This document shows positions 4,645 to 38,013 of a stretch of 38,013 nucleotides of DNA, piece after piece. The notes under the pieces were generated by a model. It did not search any database, was not told the origin of the DNA, and was given only the letters and a program-made list of their open reading frames with translations. The stretch is taken from IMG/VR virus record IMGVR_UViG_3300037010_001294, positions 1 through 38,013 of that record, one strand, 5' to 3'. Every line of letters begins with the position of its first letter. The first letter of the stretch is position 1. This DNA comes from a virus. The position numbers and the translations under genes were made by a program.

Positions 4645-4863
4645 GCTACCAATATGCTACCAAAACAGCCTTTTTATTGCTACCAAAAGCAATACTTTCG
4701 GAGAAAGAAAAACCCCGCAGAAGGCTTATTTTCTGTGGGGTTTGTGGCGGGACCGACGGGACTTGAACCCGCGACCTCCTGCGTGACAGGCAGAAGTTTT
4801 ACGCCCTGTGTGCCGCTTGAATACTATTCCTCACTTGCCTCTGCTACCTTCTCGCTACCAAAA
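4645..4863. other. attP region: tRNA-Asp 3' core with flanking GCTACC arm repeats
   Basis: The core is the 3' end of a tRNA-Asp on the minus strand, from about 4793 down to the CCA at 4747-4745: the anticodon loop CTGTCAC (anticodon GTC), the anticodon 3' stem, the T arm and the acceptor strand. The D arm and 5' half are missing, so it is not a functional tRNA. Phages carry such fragments so that integration into the host tRNA gene rebuilds it. GCTACC occurs five times around it: 4645, 4656, 4679, 4843 and 4854. Three copies extend to GCTACCAAAA, and two of these sit in small palindromes. They are good candidates for integrase arm-type sites. The integrase gene ends at 4824, beside the core. 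Confidence 0.85.
4710..4743 (-). terminator. Terminator following the tRNA-Asp fragment
   Basis: AAACCCCGCAGAA (4710-4722), an 8-base loop, and TTCTGTGGGGTTT (4731-4743) pair over 13 positions with one G-U. On the minus strand a T-rich stretch follows. It lies two bases beyond the tRNA CCA, so it looks like the host tRNA gene's own terminator carried within the phage. In the phage it would also stop leftward transcription coming out of the integrase gene. Confidence 0.75.
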
Positions 4864-5888
4864 GCGACTTTTTTCAATCCTTTTCTAAGACTTTCGTGCG
4901 TAAACTTCGTGTAGTGCTTTAGCGTTGTTCTTACGTCAGCGTGTCGCATAAGGCGCATAGCAATTTCTGGTTGTACTTCTGCATCAAGTAACCGGTTGCG
5001 GAATGTTTTACGGAACTCCTTAAACGACCTTCCTTGCGCTGGTATGTTGCAAGCGCTCAATACATCGTTTAGCCATTTTCGTAAACGTGAAAGTGTGCTA
5101 TGCTTCCAACGCCAAACTTCCGGTCCTGTCCTATTTATTCGCTTTAATACCGCAAAAGCCGCATCGGAAAGCGGAATATTCTCTAGGGTTTTATCTACTT
5201 TATTGGAAAAATCTACTGTTTGGTCCGGCTTTATATGCGCCCATTCTAACGTGAGACAGTCCACAGGACGCGCACCCGTTTCTAACATGAACTCTATCAT
5301 TAAGCCCATTTCGCGGATGTGGGCTTTCTCGCTCTTACGGCAATACTCCACTATCGCAGCGCACTCGCTTTCGGTGTAGTTCCGTACTTCGGTGTTTTCG
5401 GCTTTCCTGTACTGCTTTGCAAATTCCGTGTGCTCTATCCATCCGCGTTTGTGTGACCACGTAAGAAACGTTTGGAAGTGCCGTAGATAATTGTTCCGCG
5501 TTACTTGGTTGTGTTTGCGTTGTTCGGCGCTTGCCAAATATGCCAGTACGTCTTTCTCTGCGTTTGCAGCCGTGAGCGGCTTATCTTCCTGAGCGATTGC
5601 CTTGTATGCGAATAAATACGCTTCTTTCGTTTTCTTGCTTTTTTGAGCGCAAAATATCGTGAGAAATTGAGCAAAAGCCACGTCGTAGGTTACTACGTCG
5701 TGGCTTTCCTTTTTGTCTATGCCTTTACTTTGCAGATAGAGGCGCTCTAACATCTGCTGTGCTAGTTTACGCCCCTCTTTGGTATCTTCTAAGCCTGTGT
5801 GGTGAACGCGCCCGTTATATTTGATAATGAGTTTGTTGCGCCCGCTTTGGGCGTAGATTGAACCGGGGATTGTTCTTGTACGTGGCAT
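4824..5888 (-). CDS. int: Tyrosine-recombinase integrase
   Basis: This 354-residue site-specific recombinase integrates the phage at tRNA-Asp. The N-terminal part (about 1-60) resembles an arm-binding domain, residues about 65-165 a SAM-like core-binding domain, and 175-330 the catalytic domain. Visible catalytic residues are Arg207 (TGARP), Arg293 (EFRKTF), His316 (RHADV) and Tyr326 (KHYTKF). The histidine of the usual HxxR motif is replaced by Lys290, a known type of variation. The gene starts three bases after the stop of the secreted-protein gene upstream, so it shares the repressor transcript. Its 3' end lies about 30 bases from the attP core. Confidence 0.93.
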   Translation of the reverse strand: MPRTRTIPGSIYAQSGRNKLIIKYNGRVHHTGLEDTKEGRKLAQQMLERLYLQSKGIDKKESHDVVTYDVAFAQFLTIFCAQKSKKTKEAYLFAYKAIAQEDKPLTAANAEKDVLAYLASAEQRKHNQVTRNNYLRHFQTFLTWSHKRGWIEHTEFAKQYRKAENTEVRNYTESECAAIVEYCRKSEKAHIREMGLMIEFMLETGARPVDCLTLEWAHIKPDQTVDFSNKVDKTLENIPLSDAAFAVLKRINRTGPEVWRWKHSTLSRLRKWLNDVLSACNIPAQGRSFKEFRKTFRNRLLDAEVQPEIAMRLMRHADVRTTLKHYTKFTHESLRKGLKKVAFGSEKVAEASEE

Positions 5889-5891
5889 GGG

Positions 5892-6494
5892 TTATTTGCC
5901 ATTTAGCATTTGTTCGTACTCTTTAACTGAATCGTCAAAGATTAGATTTATCCTGTCTCTATGGAACGCCTTGCAAAGTTCAATGTTCCTACTATCGCTA
6001 AAAAATGAGTCAAAAGACTCTCTTATTTCGTCGGGGTACTTGTCCCATAGAATTTTGATATATGTAATGAAATCGGTATTTGTGCCGAATAGCTTACCTT
6101 GCTTTGTTAGAATCAAGTAAGAGTTTTGCGTGGAAGGTATTTTTTTGTAATAATTGCTATTACTCATTGCGCTATAATTGAGAGCCGCAATAACTTTCAC
6201 TGTGTCGTATCTATCTAAGGTTACGCCCGCTTTTCTGTCATCTTTGAAAGACTTTAGTTCCATTTTGTTTCTTTTGTAGCTATCGGAGTAAGCATCCATA
6301 GAATTTTCTACAATGCCAATCAAAGGTGAATAAGCCAAGCAAGCGCACATCAAAGTATCGTAATATTTTGATTTTGCTTCAAGCTGCCAAATTTGCTTTG
6401 TTACATCGGTCTTGTGCCGTCTGATTTCAGCGAGATTATTTTGTGCATAACAGACACCACTTGTGAGCCATAGCAACACTAATATCGTTTTCAT
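5892..6494 (-). CDS. Secreted or periplasmic protein of the lysogeny operon
   Basis: A 200-residue protein beginning MKTILVLLWL with a clear signal peptide, cut probably after CYA before QNN. I chose the ATG at 6494 over an upstream TTG because the signal peptide starts there. The mature part is charged and mostly helical, with a Cys-Ala-Cys pair near residue 50 (MCACLAY) and no recognised domain. It lies four bases after the membrane-protein gene and three bases before the integrase, in the same operon as the repressor, so it should be made in the lysogen. A lysogenic-conversion or superinfection-exclusion role is inferred from this context. It is not shown by any domain. Confidence 0.7.
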   Translation of the reverse strand: MKTILVLLWLTSGVCYAQNNLAEIRRHKTDVTKQIWQLEAKSKYYDTLMCACLAYSPLIGIVENSMDAYSDSYKRNKMELKSFKDDRKAGVTLDRYDTVKVIAALNYSAMSNSNYYKKIPSTQNSYLILTKQGKLFGTNTDFITYIKILWDKYPDEIRESFDSFFSDSRNIELCKAFHRDRINLIFDDSVKEYEQMLNGK

Positions 6495-6498
6495 ACTT

Positions 6499-6996
6499 CT
6501 ATTTCTCCTCAATAGAAGTTACAGAACCGTTCATTATCTCTACATAACGCTTGAATTGGTTACGCGCAACACTAACCTTGCCTGTCTTTGATATGTTGTG
6601 TTTTTGCCCGTACTTCCAAATCTCTTTTATGCCGGAACTTGTTGTTTTCTTGTCAATATCCGAAGGTCTTCCCCAAGATAAACGGACAAATTCGGCGCTA
6701 TCTCCAATGACAATTTCCTTGCGCTTTAGACGTGCATAGCCGTCTTCGCCGTACTGCTTCTTTAACAAATCCTGCCTTTCTTCTATCTTTTCGCCCGCCG
6801 AAATAGCAGCCTTCTTTATGCCAGAAAAGAGTTTCGAGATAAGCCAAGCAATCGCATAGACAAAAACAATCGCCACTAAAGCCCCAACTACATTGTTGCT
6901 TTGGATTCCAAAAATCAAAAAGAATATCGAAAAAACGCTAGATAGGATAAACCAAGCCTGTTTATACACAGGCTTTACATTTACTTGCTCTTCCAT
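6499..6996 (-). CDS. Two-pass membrane protein of the lysogeny operon
   Basis: A 165-residue protein with two hydrophobic segments, about residues 14-31 and 36-57, then a basic amphipathic stretch and a soluble C-terminal domain (about 93-165). That domain has the cadence of SmpA/BamE-like small alpha-beta domains: IVIGDSAEFVRLSWGRP, an EIWKYG strand, and a final strand followed by NGSVTSIEE. It follows the repressor by 15 bases. Membrane proteins co-expressed with a phage repressor often exclude related phages or modify the envelope, but here that is inference. The BamE-like resemblance is by eye and could be wrong. Confidence 0.7.
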   Translation of the reverse strand: MEEQVNVKPVYKQAWFILSSVFSIFFLIFGIQSNNVVGALVAIVFVYAIAWLISKLFSGIKKAAISAGEKIEERQDLLKKQYGEDGYARLKRKEIVIGDSAEFVRLSWGRPSDIDKKTTSSGIKEIWKYGQKHNISKTGKVSVARNQFKRYVEIMNGSVTSIEEK

Positions 6997-7011
6997 TGCG
7001 ACCCGTCCTTA

Positions 7012-7710
7012 CTACGATTGAATGATAATTTGAACCACTACGCCAATAATCCGAACCTCTTCCGAGACCTCAATGGGCGCATAGCTCGTGTTTTTAGAAT
7101 CTGGATGGAGTAACCATTGTACGCCGTTCTTTTTAAGGCGTTTTACTGTATAGCCGCCGTCAATTTCAGCGAGGACAATATCATTATTTTTAGGCTCTTT
7201 TGATTCGTCTATCAAGAGCAAATCGCCGCTCTGAATCCGTGCGCCTGTCATGCTATCGCCGTGTGCCTCTACGAAATAGCTGTGTTCGTGATACAACTTG
7301 CTTATATCTATCTCTGCTCCGATGCTGTCACTTACCCATGACGCTAAACCTGCACGTGCTGGGGAAAGCATGATAGGTATTTTTCTTGGTAGTGGATTGG
7401 TCGTAGGAATAACCCGCACACCGCCATTTTGCATACTCGACATATCCTTGTCTCCGAATTTTTGTTTGAGAATTTGACCCTGTTCGTTATCTGCGAACAT
7501 AAAAATTGACTTGCCGCTTAGGTATTCAGGGTTAATACCAATTCTTAATATCCTTTCTCTCATATCAATACCTATGCGAGTTTTACCGTTTTCATAGGCA
7601 TACAAATCTTGCGGCTTTATCCCTAACATTCGAGCAAATGCAGATTTATTGCCTTTTGCCATGATTTTTATCGTGTTGATAAACCTTATCTTAGTATCTG
7701 CTGCTTCCAT
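7012..7710 (-). CDS. Phage repressor, HTH plus S24 (LexA/UmuD-like) autopeptidase
   Basis: A 232-residue lysogeny repressor. Residues about 10-60 form a Cro/CI-type helix-turn-helix (SAFARMLGIKPQDLYAYENG). The C-terminal half is an S24 peptidase very like UmuD: Ser153 in GDSM and Lys190 in YTVKRL, 37 residues apart as in LexA and UmuD, and a probable self-cleavage site at Ala120-Gly121 (ARAGLA). RecA-stimulated cleavage would induce the phage. The gene is divergent from the early operon across a 126-base control region, and the palindromes there are likely its operators. It heads an operon with two envelope proteins and the integrase. Confidence 0.93.
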   Translation of the reverse strand: MEAADTKIRFINTIKIMAKGNKSAFARMLGIKPQDLYAYENGKTRIGIDMRERILRIGINPEYLSGKSIFMFADNEQGQILKQKFGDKDMSSMQNGGVRVIPTTNPLPRKIPIMLSPARAGLASWVSDSIGAEIDISKLYHEHSYFVEAHGDSMTGARIQSGDLLLIDESKEPKNNDIVLAEIDGGYTVKRLKKNGVQWLLHPDSKNTSYAPIEVSEEVRIIGVVVQIIIQS

Positions 7711-7735
7711 TTTATTATTGTATCCTTAAATAAAT

Positions 7736-7767
7736 CTTGCAAGTTTAAGGATGTGTCCTTATATTTG
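7736..7767 (+). promoter_or_regulatory. Early rightward promoter with repressor operator
   Basis: CTTG (7736-7739), 20 bases, then TATATTTG (7760-7767) matches the Bacteroidota promoter pattern, with a perfect TAnnTTTG. The 16-bp palindrome TAAGGATGTGTCCTTA at 7746-7761 lies in the spacer and touches the -7 box. A further inverted half-site TCCTTAAA at 7723-7730 pairs with TTTAAGGA at 7744-7751. A repressor bound there would block rightward transcription. The early operon begins at 7837. Confidence 0.65.
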
Positions 7768-7783
7768 CATCACAATAAACATC

Positions 7784-7816
7784 TGTTTACACGGTAAACA
7801 TAACAAATAGTTGTTA
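7784..7816. promoter_or_regulatory. Two further palindromes in the early leader
   Basis: TGTTTAC, three bases, GTAAACA (7784-7800) and TAACAA, four bases, TTGTTA (7801-7816) are perfect inverted repeats directly next to each other, between the early promoter and the first early gene. The second has the same 6-4-6 layout as the TAAGGA/TCCTTA operator but a different core. They may bind a second regulator (Cro-like) or shape the leader RNA. Confidence 0.5.
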
Positions 7817-7836
7817 ATAAGCAAGGAGAAAAACGC

Positions 7837-8037
7837 ATGGGCTTACTAGAAATGTGCGGGGCAGACTTTGTACTGATAGGCACAAGAGTTTTCCGCCGCG
7901 AACAAATACTCGCAGCCTCTGTATATGAACACGAAGGCGAATACTGGGCTTTAGTCTGGCAAGTGGAGCAAAGATTTCACGACGAACCTTTACAAATCAT
8001 TCTTACCAAAGAGCAGTACAAAGCCCTTCGGCGCTAA
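7837..8037 (+). CDS. First early gene, small hypothetical protein, 66 aa
   Basis: The first gene after the early promoter, with a strong ribosome site (AAGGAG, nine bases before ATG). The product is a small mixed alpha-beta protein with no helix-turn-helix or membrane segment that I can see and no recognised family. As the first product after derepression it could act on the genetic switch or the host. Its last four bases overlap the end of the antisense gene at 8034-8258. Confidence 0.65.
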   Translation: MGLLEMCGADFVLIGTRVFRREQILAASVYEHEGEYWALVWQVEQRFHDEPLQIILTKEQYKALRR

Positions 8038-8258
8038 TCTTTTGAATCCTGCACAGTCGCAGAATCAACTTCGTAGCAGTATTCGATTTGGTTTATGGGT
8101 ATGAGGGCAATGGGTTTATTGCCTGCGTCTAGCGCTACTTCAACAAATGCTAAAACGCTGCCCTCTTTAGGTATCTCGTATCGCGTAGCTTTAATCGTTA
8201 GCACACTACCCAAGACAGTTTTCACAACAAAGGTTTTCATAAGACCACGAATAAACAT
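8034..8258 (-). CDS. Small antisense-strand protein in the early region, 74 aa
   Basis: The only leftward gene inside the early operon. The product (ATG at 8258, or the internal ATG at 8240) has a regular pattern of beta strands and one short helix and resembles small phage proteins with an IALIPINQI-type strand, but I cannot name the family. A promoter pattern lies just upstream at 8278-8308. Its transcript would run antisense to the first early gene and on toward the repressor gene, with no terminator visible between. That suggests a role in the lysis-lysogeny decision. This is inference. Confidence 0.55.
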   Translation of the reverse strand: MFIRGLMKTFVVKTVLGSVLTIKATRYEIPKEGSVLAFVEVALDAGNKPIALIPINQIEYCYEVDSATVQDSKD

Positions 8259-8277
8259 AGATAAACACCATTAAACA

Positions 8278-8308
8278 GCAATATATGGAAACACAAGAAA
8301 AAATCAAA
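8278..8308 (-). promoter_or_regulatory. Candidate leftward promoter inside the early operon
   Basis: On the minus strand TTTG (8308-8305), 19 bases, TATATTGC (8285-8278). The -7 box is identical to that of the candidate promoter at 4410-4417. It lies over the start of the 8285 gene and points to the antisense gene at 8034-8258 and beyond it the repressor. Pattern evidence only. Confidence 0.45.
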
Positions 8309-9331: not shown

Positions 9332-9619
9332 ATGCAAATCTACATCCCAAATCTACACATAACAGGCGCTACATTCGATTGCGGCAAATATGGCAGTGCG
9401 GAGGTTACGCCCATAGAACGCCGCGAATGTTTGTACGATGTAGATGTACAGGTTTCCCCGTCGTACCGGAAGAGCCGCGAAGAGGCGCAAGACGTAAAGA
9501 GTATCATTGTTGAGGTTGTAGGCTTGCGCTTGGGAGATTGGATATTTAACGCAGACGGCACAACCAATATCGAATCCGACATTGAGGAACTGTACGAACT
9601 GGCATATCTGGAATACTAA
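9332..9619 (+). CDS. Early hypothetical protein, 95 aa
   Basis: An acidic mixed alpha-beta protein without signal peptide, membrane segment or known motif. It sits directly before the coiled-coil and RecT genes, in the part of the early operon that usually encodes recombination functions and their small accessory proteins. Role unknown. Confidence 0.6.
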   Translation: MQIYIPNLHITGATFDCGKYGSAEVTPIERRECLYDVDVQVSPSYRKSREEAQDVKSIIVEVVGLRLGDWIFNADGTTNIESDIEELYELAYLEY

Positions 9620-9657
9620 CAACCCATTTTTTTTTACACACCCTATCTACAAACCGC

Positions 9658-10668
9658 ATGGAAACGACAGAATTTACCAACGTTGAGGTACTAAACCTTA
9701 TCGAGCAAAACGGCGTACAGGTAGCGCCGAATCGAAATATCGTGGATTCATTTTTGAATTTCTTCGGCGAAGTTCGGAAGTGGCAAGCACAGGCACAAAC
9801 GCTCACTATTACGAGCATTGAGCAAACAAACGAAATGAAAATAGCACGGCAAGCGCGTTTGGCTCTCAAAAACATCCGTGTCGAGGTGGAACACACCCGC
9901 AAGCGCTTGAAAGAAGACAGCTTGCGTACAGGTCAAACCATTGATGCCGTCGCAAAGATACTCACGAATGAGATTTCGCCCATCGAAAAGCACTTGGAAG
10001 AGCAAGAGAAATTCGCTGAAATCCAAGAAAAGAAGCGCAAAGCACAATTACGAGCCGCACGGGAACTTGCTTTAGAGCCGTTTAGCGTTGACACGCAGCA
10101 CTATAACTTAGAAGATATGCCAGAAGATACGTTCCAATCACTCCTTTCTTCTATCGCTATTGCATACCAACAGCAAAAAGCCGCACAAGAGGAAGCCGAA
10201 GCCCGAAGAATAGCACAAGAAAAAGCAGAGGCAGAAGCGCGTGAGGCTATGCGCGAAGAAAACGAGCGCTTGAAAGCAGAAGCAGAAGTGGCAGAAAAAG
10301 CCAGAATCGAAAAAGAACGGGAAGCGCAAAAAGAACGGGAACGATTGGAAGCACAGGCGAAAGCGGCGGAACAAGAGGCGCAAAAGGAGCGCATTGCACG
10401 GGAGAAAATCGAAAAAGAACGTGCTGACAAAGAAGCCGCCGAAAGAGCAGCACAGGAGAAAGCCGAAAAAGCCCGCTTGAAAGCAGAGAAAGCGGAACGC
10501 AATCGCCCTGACAAAGAGAAACTACTTGCTTTTGCGCTGGAAATTGAGGCACTTGCTCAAAAAAGTATTGAGATTCAGAGTGAGGAATACGGCGCAATTA
10601 TGCAAAGAGCAAGAATTTCTTTGCGGGCTTTGTCGAACACACTGACAAGTGAAGCCAATTCGCTATAA
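9658..10668 (+). CDS. Long coiled-coil protein of the RecT cassette
   Basis: A 336-residue protein. Residues about 1-150 are helical. From about 165 to 285 there is a long highly charged coiled-coil, almost entirely Ala, Glu, Lys, Arg and Gln (repeats such as EKAEAEARE). A short helical end closes it. Phages with RecT and YqaJ often carry such a protein (DUF1351-type) just before them, where it is thought to help the exonuclease or annealing step. Assignment to that family is tentative. The Glu/Lys/Arg repeat makes the gene locally low in complexity. Confidence 0.7.
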   Translation: METTEFTNVEVLNLIEQNGVQVAPNRNIVDSFLNFFGEVRKWQAQAQTLTITSIEQTNEMKIARQARLALKNIRVEVEHTRKRLKEDSLRTGQTIDAVAKILTNEISPIEKHLEEQEKFAEIQEKKRKAQLRAARELALEPFSVDTQHYNLEDMPEDTFQSLLSSIAIAYQQQKAAQEEAEARRIAQEKAEAEAREAMREENERLKAEAEVAEKARIEKEREAQKERERLEAQAKAAEQEAQKERIAREKIEKERADKEAAERAAQEKAEKARLKAEKAERNRPDKEKLLAFALEIEALAQKSIEIQSEEYGAIMQRARISLRALSNTLTSEANSL

Positions 10669-37810: not shown

Positions 37811-38013
37811 ATGCCATATCTACCGTCATTCCTAAAAGAAAACCTCTACCCGTCTTTTGAGCAATGCAAAAAAGCAGAACAGAAAGCGGAAATAGACGAC
37901 CCGAACACCCGCGATACACGCGAGCTTATGGCTATCCTTATGAGGCTTGTGGAAGCAAACCCGCGTCTGAGAGGTCACATACTGACACGCCGTACAGCGC
38001 TTTCCTCGTTTTC
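37811..38013 (+). CDS. Portal protein, N-terminal part (continues at 1)
   Basis: ATG 37811, two bases after the terminase stop, begins MPYLPSFLKENLYPSFEQC and runs off the window in frame. The same frame enters at base 1 of the window. Residue 26 of the full protein is Ala here and Val in the opening copy, because the two ends differ at one base. Confidence 0.88.
   Translation, partial: MPYLPSFLKENLYPSFEQCKKAEQKAEIDDPNTRDTRELMAILMRLVEANPRLRGHILTRRTALSSF
37851..38013. repeat. Terminal direct repeat, right copy
   Basis: The right copy of the 163-bp terminal repeat. The one mismatch changes a valine codon (GTG) to alanine (GCG) in the portal frame, so it may be a real polymorphism or an assembly error. 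Confidence 0.93.

Follow-up and report, generated by a model that had tools for sequence, protein, structure and literature searches.

A probably exchangeable accessory cassette between the repressor and integrase genes of a putative Kapabacteria temperate phage

The window, that is, the whole stretch of 38,013 nucleotides analysed here, is an IMG/VR virus record whose first and last 163 bases are the same but for one mismatch (1–163 versus 37851–38013), which indicates a circular or circularly permuted genome of ~37.85 kb. Its lysogeny region carries four open reading frames on the minus strand, encoding in this order a repressor (7012–7710), a two-helix membrane protein (6499–6996), a secreted protein (5892–6494) and an integrase (4824–5888). 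The genes are separated by gaps of 15, 4 and 3 bases, as in the tight four-gene operon described in an earlier note on this DNA, and the two middle genes show the operon-like spacing and shared strand of an accessory cassette placed between repressor and integrase. Judged by sequence comparison, this repressor–cargo–integrase layout is not a product of chance, the same one-strand order being found again in related prophages. The spacing makes a single transcript for the four genes likely, and the cargo is probably expressed together with the repressor, given the recurrent gene order, the layout and intergenic gaps too short to house promoters. In a motif search for a separate integrase promoter, the TAnnTTTG element is absent from the minus strand of 4700–8300, and sigma-70-like matches in the region number 15, versus 9.7 in shuffles. 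A weak 5-bp hairpin followed by a T-run (6007–6020), of a strength indistinguishable from chance, lies inside the second cargo gene and could attenuate transcription of the integrase gene.

The identities of the two outer genes, also as previously proposed, are borne out by database matches. The repressor (232 aa) is of the S24-type CI/LexA-like kind with an N-terminal HTH (Pfam Peptidase_S24, E value of 4.7e-24; PHROG ‘transcriptional repressor', E value of 6e-35). Motifs read from its sequence, namely an Ala-Gly cleavage-site motif (PARAG), a GDSM serine and a VKRLKK lysine, are the Ala-Gly and Ser/Lys features expected of a repressor cleaved in the SOS response, which suggests that transcription of the operon may change on induction; the AG site is also present in the relatives L004 and L079. 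L004 belongs to contig 3300036715_004470 (loci L002, L004 and L007), a close relative that is an integrated provirus. The N-terminal ~86 residues of the window repressor (7012–7710) and that of L004 (5519–6214) are identical while their C-terminal halves have diverged, so the two phages probably share immunity despite their differing cargo. Upstream of the repressor gene, a divergent control region (7711–7836) contains four short palindromes (7746–7761, 7776–7789, 7784–7800 and 7801–7816) that are candidate repressor operators, and its 3′ part, with two of the palindromes, is unchanged in L004. Just across this region a second patch without homology to L004 (7834–8184) shows that the operators are flanked by mosaic sequence on both sides. 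On the far side of the control region, L002 encodes a long pentapeptide-repeat protein (1057–1746; ANLSGADLSG...); the ORF list of the window holds no such ORF at the corresponding place.

The integrase (354 aa) is a tyrosine recombinase with ETGAR, MRH and KHY motifs (Phage_integrase, E value of 1.5e-12; PHROG integrase, E value of 4e-32). Its gene is directly followed by the 3′ half of a tRNA-Asp gene (anticodon GTC; 4744–4793, minus strand), identified as the attP core by BLAST to tRNA-Asp genes and by the intact tRNA-Asp at the L007 provirus junction. Five GGTAGC repeats on the minus strand (at 4859, 4848, 4684, 4661 and 4650, within 4645–4859) flank this core and are candidate arm-type sites for the integrase, those at 4859 and 4848 falling inside the 3′ end of the integrase gene itself. 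Beside the tRNA half lies a strong terminator-like hairpin (4695–4765; AAACCCC...GGGGTTTTTC) with predicted RNA folding energies of −21.4 kcal/mol on the minus strand and −27.2 kcal/mol on the plus strand. Comparison of window 4645–5888 with L003 470–1700 shows that the first 76 residues of the two integrases are nearly identical and that the rest has diverged. L003 has a different tRNA at its att core, again as a 3′ half (anticodon GAC, read by eye), and the set and order of arm sites are the same in spite of this change; we take this to mean that integrase core and attachment site were swapped as modules.

A peptide-pattern search for the window integrase in the genome collection gave no match, and the host was therefore sought through the ruvC gene beside the att site of the relative. 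On the far side of the provirus in 3300036715_004470, an intact tRNA-Asp is followed by tRNA-Ala and then by ruvC, the product of which shares 99% identity with that of one Candidatus Kapaibacterium MAG and 86–98% with those of others labelled Kapaibacterium or Ignavibacteria. From this relative integrated at tRNA-Asp beside ruvC, we infer that the host lineage is Kapabacteria/Ignavibacteria.

The first cargo gene (6499–6996, minus strand) encodes a 165-aa protein with two TM helices (residues about 13–31 and 36–58), a helical stalk reaching residue 91 and a BamE/BLIP-like domain (residues 92–165). The earlier reading of a two-pass membrane protein with a BamE-like C-terminal domain holds, since two N-terminal hydrophobic helices are found and the domain is supported by sequence relatives (best E value of 1.2e-6), a structure model (pLDDT 86) and structure alignment. 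With VIA-align, the C-terminal domain matches BamE 7txx with a Z score of 6.6 (24% identity over 67 residues), and E. coli BamE 5d0o and OsmE with Z scores of 6.3 and 6.2, respectively; BamE, OsmE and BLIP together span about 5–6.6, and the top match is an SCP-protein chain (Z score of 7.2). As BLIP and SCP-protein chains align at similar Z, what is assigned is a fold superfamily, and neither BamE alone nor a function. Profile searches yield no SmpA_OmlA/BamE match in Pfam, where only DUF2845 appears (E value of 0.046), no Pfam or PADLOC family, and in PHROGs only a weak match to an unnamed family (E value of 0.0018). Residues 90–165 are predicted to share the alpha+beta fold of BamE/SmpA-OmlA-like proteins (BamE, OsmE and BLIP) but fall outside the family profile; and whereas BamE is lipid-anchored, the window protein is anchored by two TM helices, probably with its domain on the cytoplasmic side. 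A role as a periplasmic lipoprotein of the BAM complex was considered and does not fit these helices or the lack of a lipobox.

The topology estimate rests on basic residues that follow the second TM helix: by the positive-inside rule they suggest that the BamE-like domain is cytoplasmic, as also seems to be so in the viral relative L108, and this weakens a BamE-like role at the outer membrane. Most relatives of the domain are, unlike this estimate, exported. In the host class, the best-matching relatives are mostly proteins with a signal peptide and a C-terminal ...GMTxExxRxSWGxPDKI...W.YG... domain, which is also seen in viral contigs, and many secreted proteins of that class carry a BamE-like domain. 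A relative is also encoded next to the integrase of Marinobacter phage AS1, beside a putative lipoprotein.

The second cargo gene (5892–6494, minus strand; G+C content of 36.5%) encodes an orphan protein of 200 aa, starting at ATG 6494; an alternative start at TTG 6512 was rejected. That it is secreted, as had been claimed, is supported by a typical signal peptide recognized by eye at residues 1–17 (MKTILVLLWLTSGVCYA, followed by Q), which a hydropathy rule did not flag. It has no convincing relative in Pfam, PHROGs, PADLOC, viral contigs or phage records, and its structure model is unusable (pLDDT 39). For both cargo proteins, a single-sequence search of viral contigs returned no direct relatives, and tblastn against 50,697 phage records returned none. 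A sequence-profile search of the PDB gave coiled-coil noise only. The pair was also considered as a toxin–antitoxin system, and this was rejected for want of family support in Pfam or PADLOC.

These two proteins might serve the phage's own biology, through membrane-linked control of the lysis–lysogeny decision or as an abortive system of the Rex type with an intracellular trigger. Such a role would suit a two-TM protein with a probably cytoplasmic domain and a position in the repressor operon like that of rexAB and bstA (PMC8585504), but it sits poorly with the secretion of the second protein and with cargo that is unconserved even between phages sharing the same operator-binding half of the repressor, and we consider it improbable.

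The limits of the cargo are sharply drawn by comparison with L004. The two sequences are homologous as far as the repressor stop codon (window 7011) and again from the second base of the integrase start (5887); the repressor genes are 81% identical at the DNA level and the integrase genes 99.6%, and the cargo between them is without homology except at short junctions. In place of the window pair, L004 carries genes for a YbjQ-like protein, a one-TM protein, a 78-codon ORF, a DUF2335 membrane protein and a small TM protein, so that in otherwise similar phages the cargo is replaced by unrelated genes at exact gene boundaries. The leader before the first cargo gene (AAGGACGGGTCGCAATG; 6994–7010, minus strand) is a probable exchange junction: the leader sequence AAGGACGGGTCGYAATG heads the first cargo gene in the window but an unrelated membrane-protein gene in L004. 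Use of this leader as a wider anchor was rejected, because none of its three other viral matches lies near a repressor or integrase gene and all three appear to be fortuitous. At the other end, the cargo stop codon is linked to the start of the integrase gene by the sequence TAACCCATGCCACGTAC (5878–5894, minus strand); the window, L003 and a relic within L004 have the junction TAACCCATGCCACGYAC at that start in common. This relic, a 26/26-base copy of an L003-type integrase start inside the L004 cargo block, is in our reading the scar of an earlier junction, left when a second cassette was added. Taken together, the interval between repressor and integrase is very probably a swappable lysogeny cassette.

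Breakpoints of this kind and the relic integrase start speak of frequent illegitimate exchange, and the cargo could on that account consist of passenger genes caught by recombination at the repressor–integrase boundary, with no selected function. That some relatives do without cargo fits this explanation, which we nevertheless hold to be very improbable, as the genes are open, well spaced and provided with good ribosome-binding sites, and envelope-directed proteins occur in every cargo-bearing interval.

The latter observation comes from integrases of the window family found in Kapabacteria/Ignavibacteria genomes, whose surroundings were read. Eleven intervals, including that of the window, show a recognizable repressor–cargo–integrase arrangement on one strand (the others are L004, L079, L084, L085, L087 and L115–L119), and four relatives (L082, L083, L086 and L098) have no cargo between repressor and integrase, so that the slot is optional. 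A lipoprotein is the sole cargo in L085, L116 and L119, with a CAP domain in the last. Elsewhere the slot holds a secreted SNase-like protein (L079; weak PADLOC SNc+LTD match, E value of 1.8e-4), a TM protein and a PIN protein (L084), DUF4747 and a multi-TM protein (L087), a secreted protein and one with a secretion sorting tail (L115), a signal-peptide protein and an HSP90-like ATPase (L117), or an outer-membrane barrel (L118). The cargo is A+T-rich, and its proteins show no convincing relationship among themselves (E value of 0.013 for the best cross-match). Membrane, lipoprotein or secreted products are encoded by 15 of the 26 cargo genes and in 11/11 intervals, against a background of 22% among mixed 110–350-aa ORFs, which gives naive binomial P values of ~9e-5 (genes) and ~3e-5 (intervals) for a post hoc comparison. 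A single hydropathy rule was applied throughout, a crude one that fails to flag the signal peptide in the window itself, and only intervals with a recognizable repressor were taken. Because the comparison is post hoc and the rule crude, the enrichment is a strong suggestion and no proof.

Several of these occupants would also fit lysogenic conversion of another sort, in which envelope proteins aid the host through stress resistance, surface change or competition and exclude no phage. The CAP-domain lipoprotein, the outer-membrane barrel and the protein with a secretion sorting tail point that way, as does the BamE/BLIP fold, a general binding fold used also by inhibitors and an immunity protein. 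The PIN and SNase-like proteins, however, suit defence better, and in dairy phages the known occupants of this position are exclusion proteins (PMC7693887, PMC3952083). On balance, conversion of this sort appears somewhat unlikely.

The reading that we favour, with a probability of roughly 0.45, is that the lysogeny operon of a Kapabacteria temperate phage carries, at 5892–6996, an accessory cassette of the lysogenic-conversion type that can be exchanged, with exclusion as its likeliest job. Read-through from the repressor promoter would supply the membrane protein, with its BamE/BLIP-like binding domain, and the secreted protein throughout lysogeny; both would alter the host envelope such that incoming phages could not eject their DNA, in the manner of Sie2009 and Ltp. 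The pair shares with these proteins a membrane-anchored or surface-exposed character (TM helices; signal peptide by eye). No relation of the window proteins to a known Sie family appears in Pfam, PHROGs or PADLOC, an absence that weighs little since Sie proteins are diverse. Lysogeny modules of dairy phages contain extra genes between integrase and repressor, some of them proven exclusion genes (DNA-entry blockers such as Sie2009 and Ltp; PMC7693887, PMC3952083), but three genes cloned from the repressor–integrase position of phage Dub35A gave no resistance (PMC7693887). This null result calls for caution, and superinfection exclusion, although the leading function for the cassette, is accordingly put forward only tentatively and at much lower confidence than the swappable cassette itself.

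Closest in organization are the lactococcal P335 modules, which carry Sie2009 (Tuc2009, LC3) or orf2/orf3 (TP901-1) and encode small membrane-associated proteins, with slot genes that vary by phage as they do here (PMC7693887). P335 phages infect Gram-positive hosts and their exclusion is shown, whereas in the window the second protein is secreted, no sequence relation was found and exclusion is proposed. The envelope-exposed Ltp of Streptococcus thermophilus phage TP-J34 likewise comes from a lysogeny-module gene that is transcribed from the prophage (PMC3952083), but it is a lipoprotein with its own fold, as opposed to an inner-membrane protein with a BamE-like domain and a secreted orphan. 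Anti-phage genes are carried in prophage repressor operons in lambda (cI-rexAB) and BTP1 (cI-bstA), bstA being presumably on the repressor's promoter (PMC8585504); these differ from the window in acting by abortive infection, in lacking a link to the integrase and in encoding unrelated proteins. Other phage hotspots hold anti-phage genes too (PMC9122126). The kind of module is thus known. The lysogen-expressed envelope module put forward in the earlier note is plausible, and the 11/11 intervals strengthen it; the layout is not novel. Nor is an integrase at the end of a repressor operon unusual, given lactococcal and streptococcal precedents (PMC7693887, PMC3952083). As far as could be established, the novelty lies in the proteins, the host lineage and the apparent bias of a diderm lineage to envelope proteins, and the part of the literature on Kapabacteria prophages that was covered, with most subscription journals outside its scope, gives no sign of a description of this slot.

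That related viruses fill the slot with quite different envelope proteins suggests that it serves for the exchange of genes that would protect the dormant host. A stronger proposal, which we regard as unlikely, is that the interval is reserved, in prophages of the diderm Kapabacteria, for exclusion genes acting on the envelope and that the window pair forms a new exclusion system, DNA entry being stopped jointly by a BamE/BLIP-like domain anchored in the inner membrane and a secreted partner. Most known exclusion genes in this position come from dairy phages, whose hosts are Gram-positive; if rotating envelope proteins occupy the slot in diderm Kapabacteria too, position alone would become a search rule for unknown exclusion proteins, covering every gene between repressor and integrase whose product is a small secreted protein, lipoprotein or membrane protein, and a set of unnamed protein families would become directly testable.

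A separate observation concerns L080: upstream of a related integrase, and close to a potassium-channel-like gene, it encodes a probable lipoprotein (9436–10224) with a stretch that by eye resembles a DNA/RNA non-specific endonuclease.
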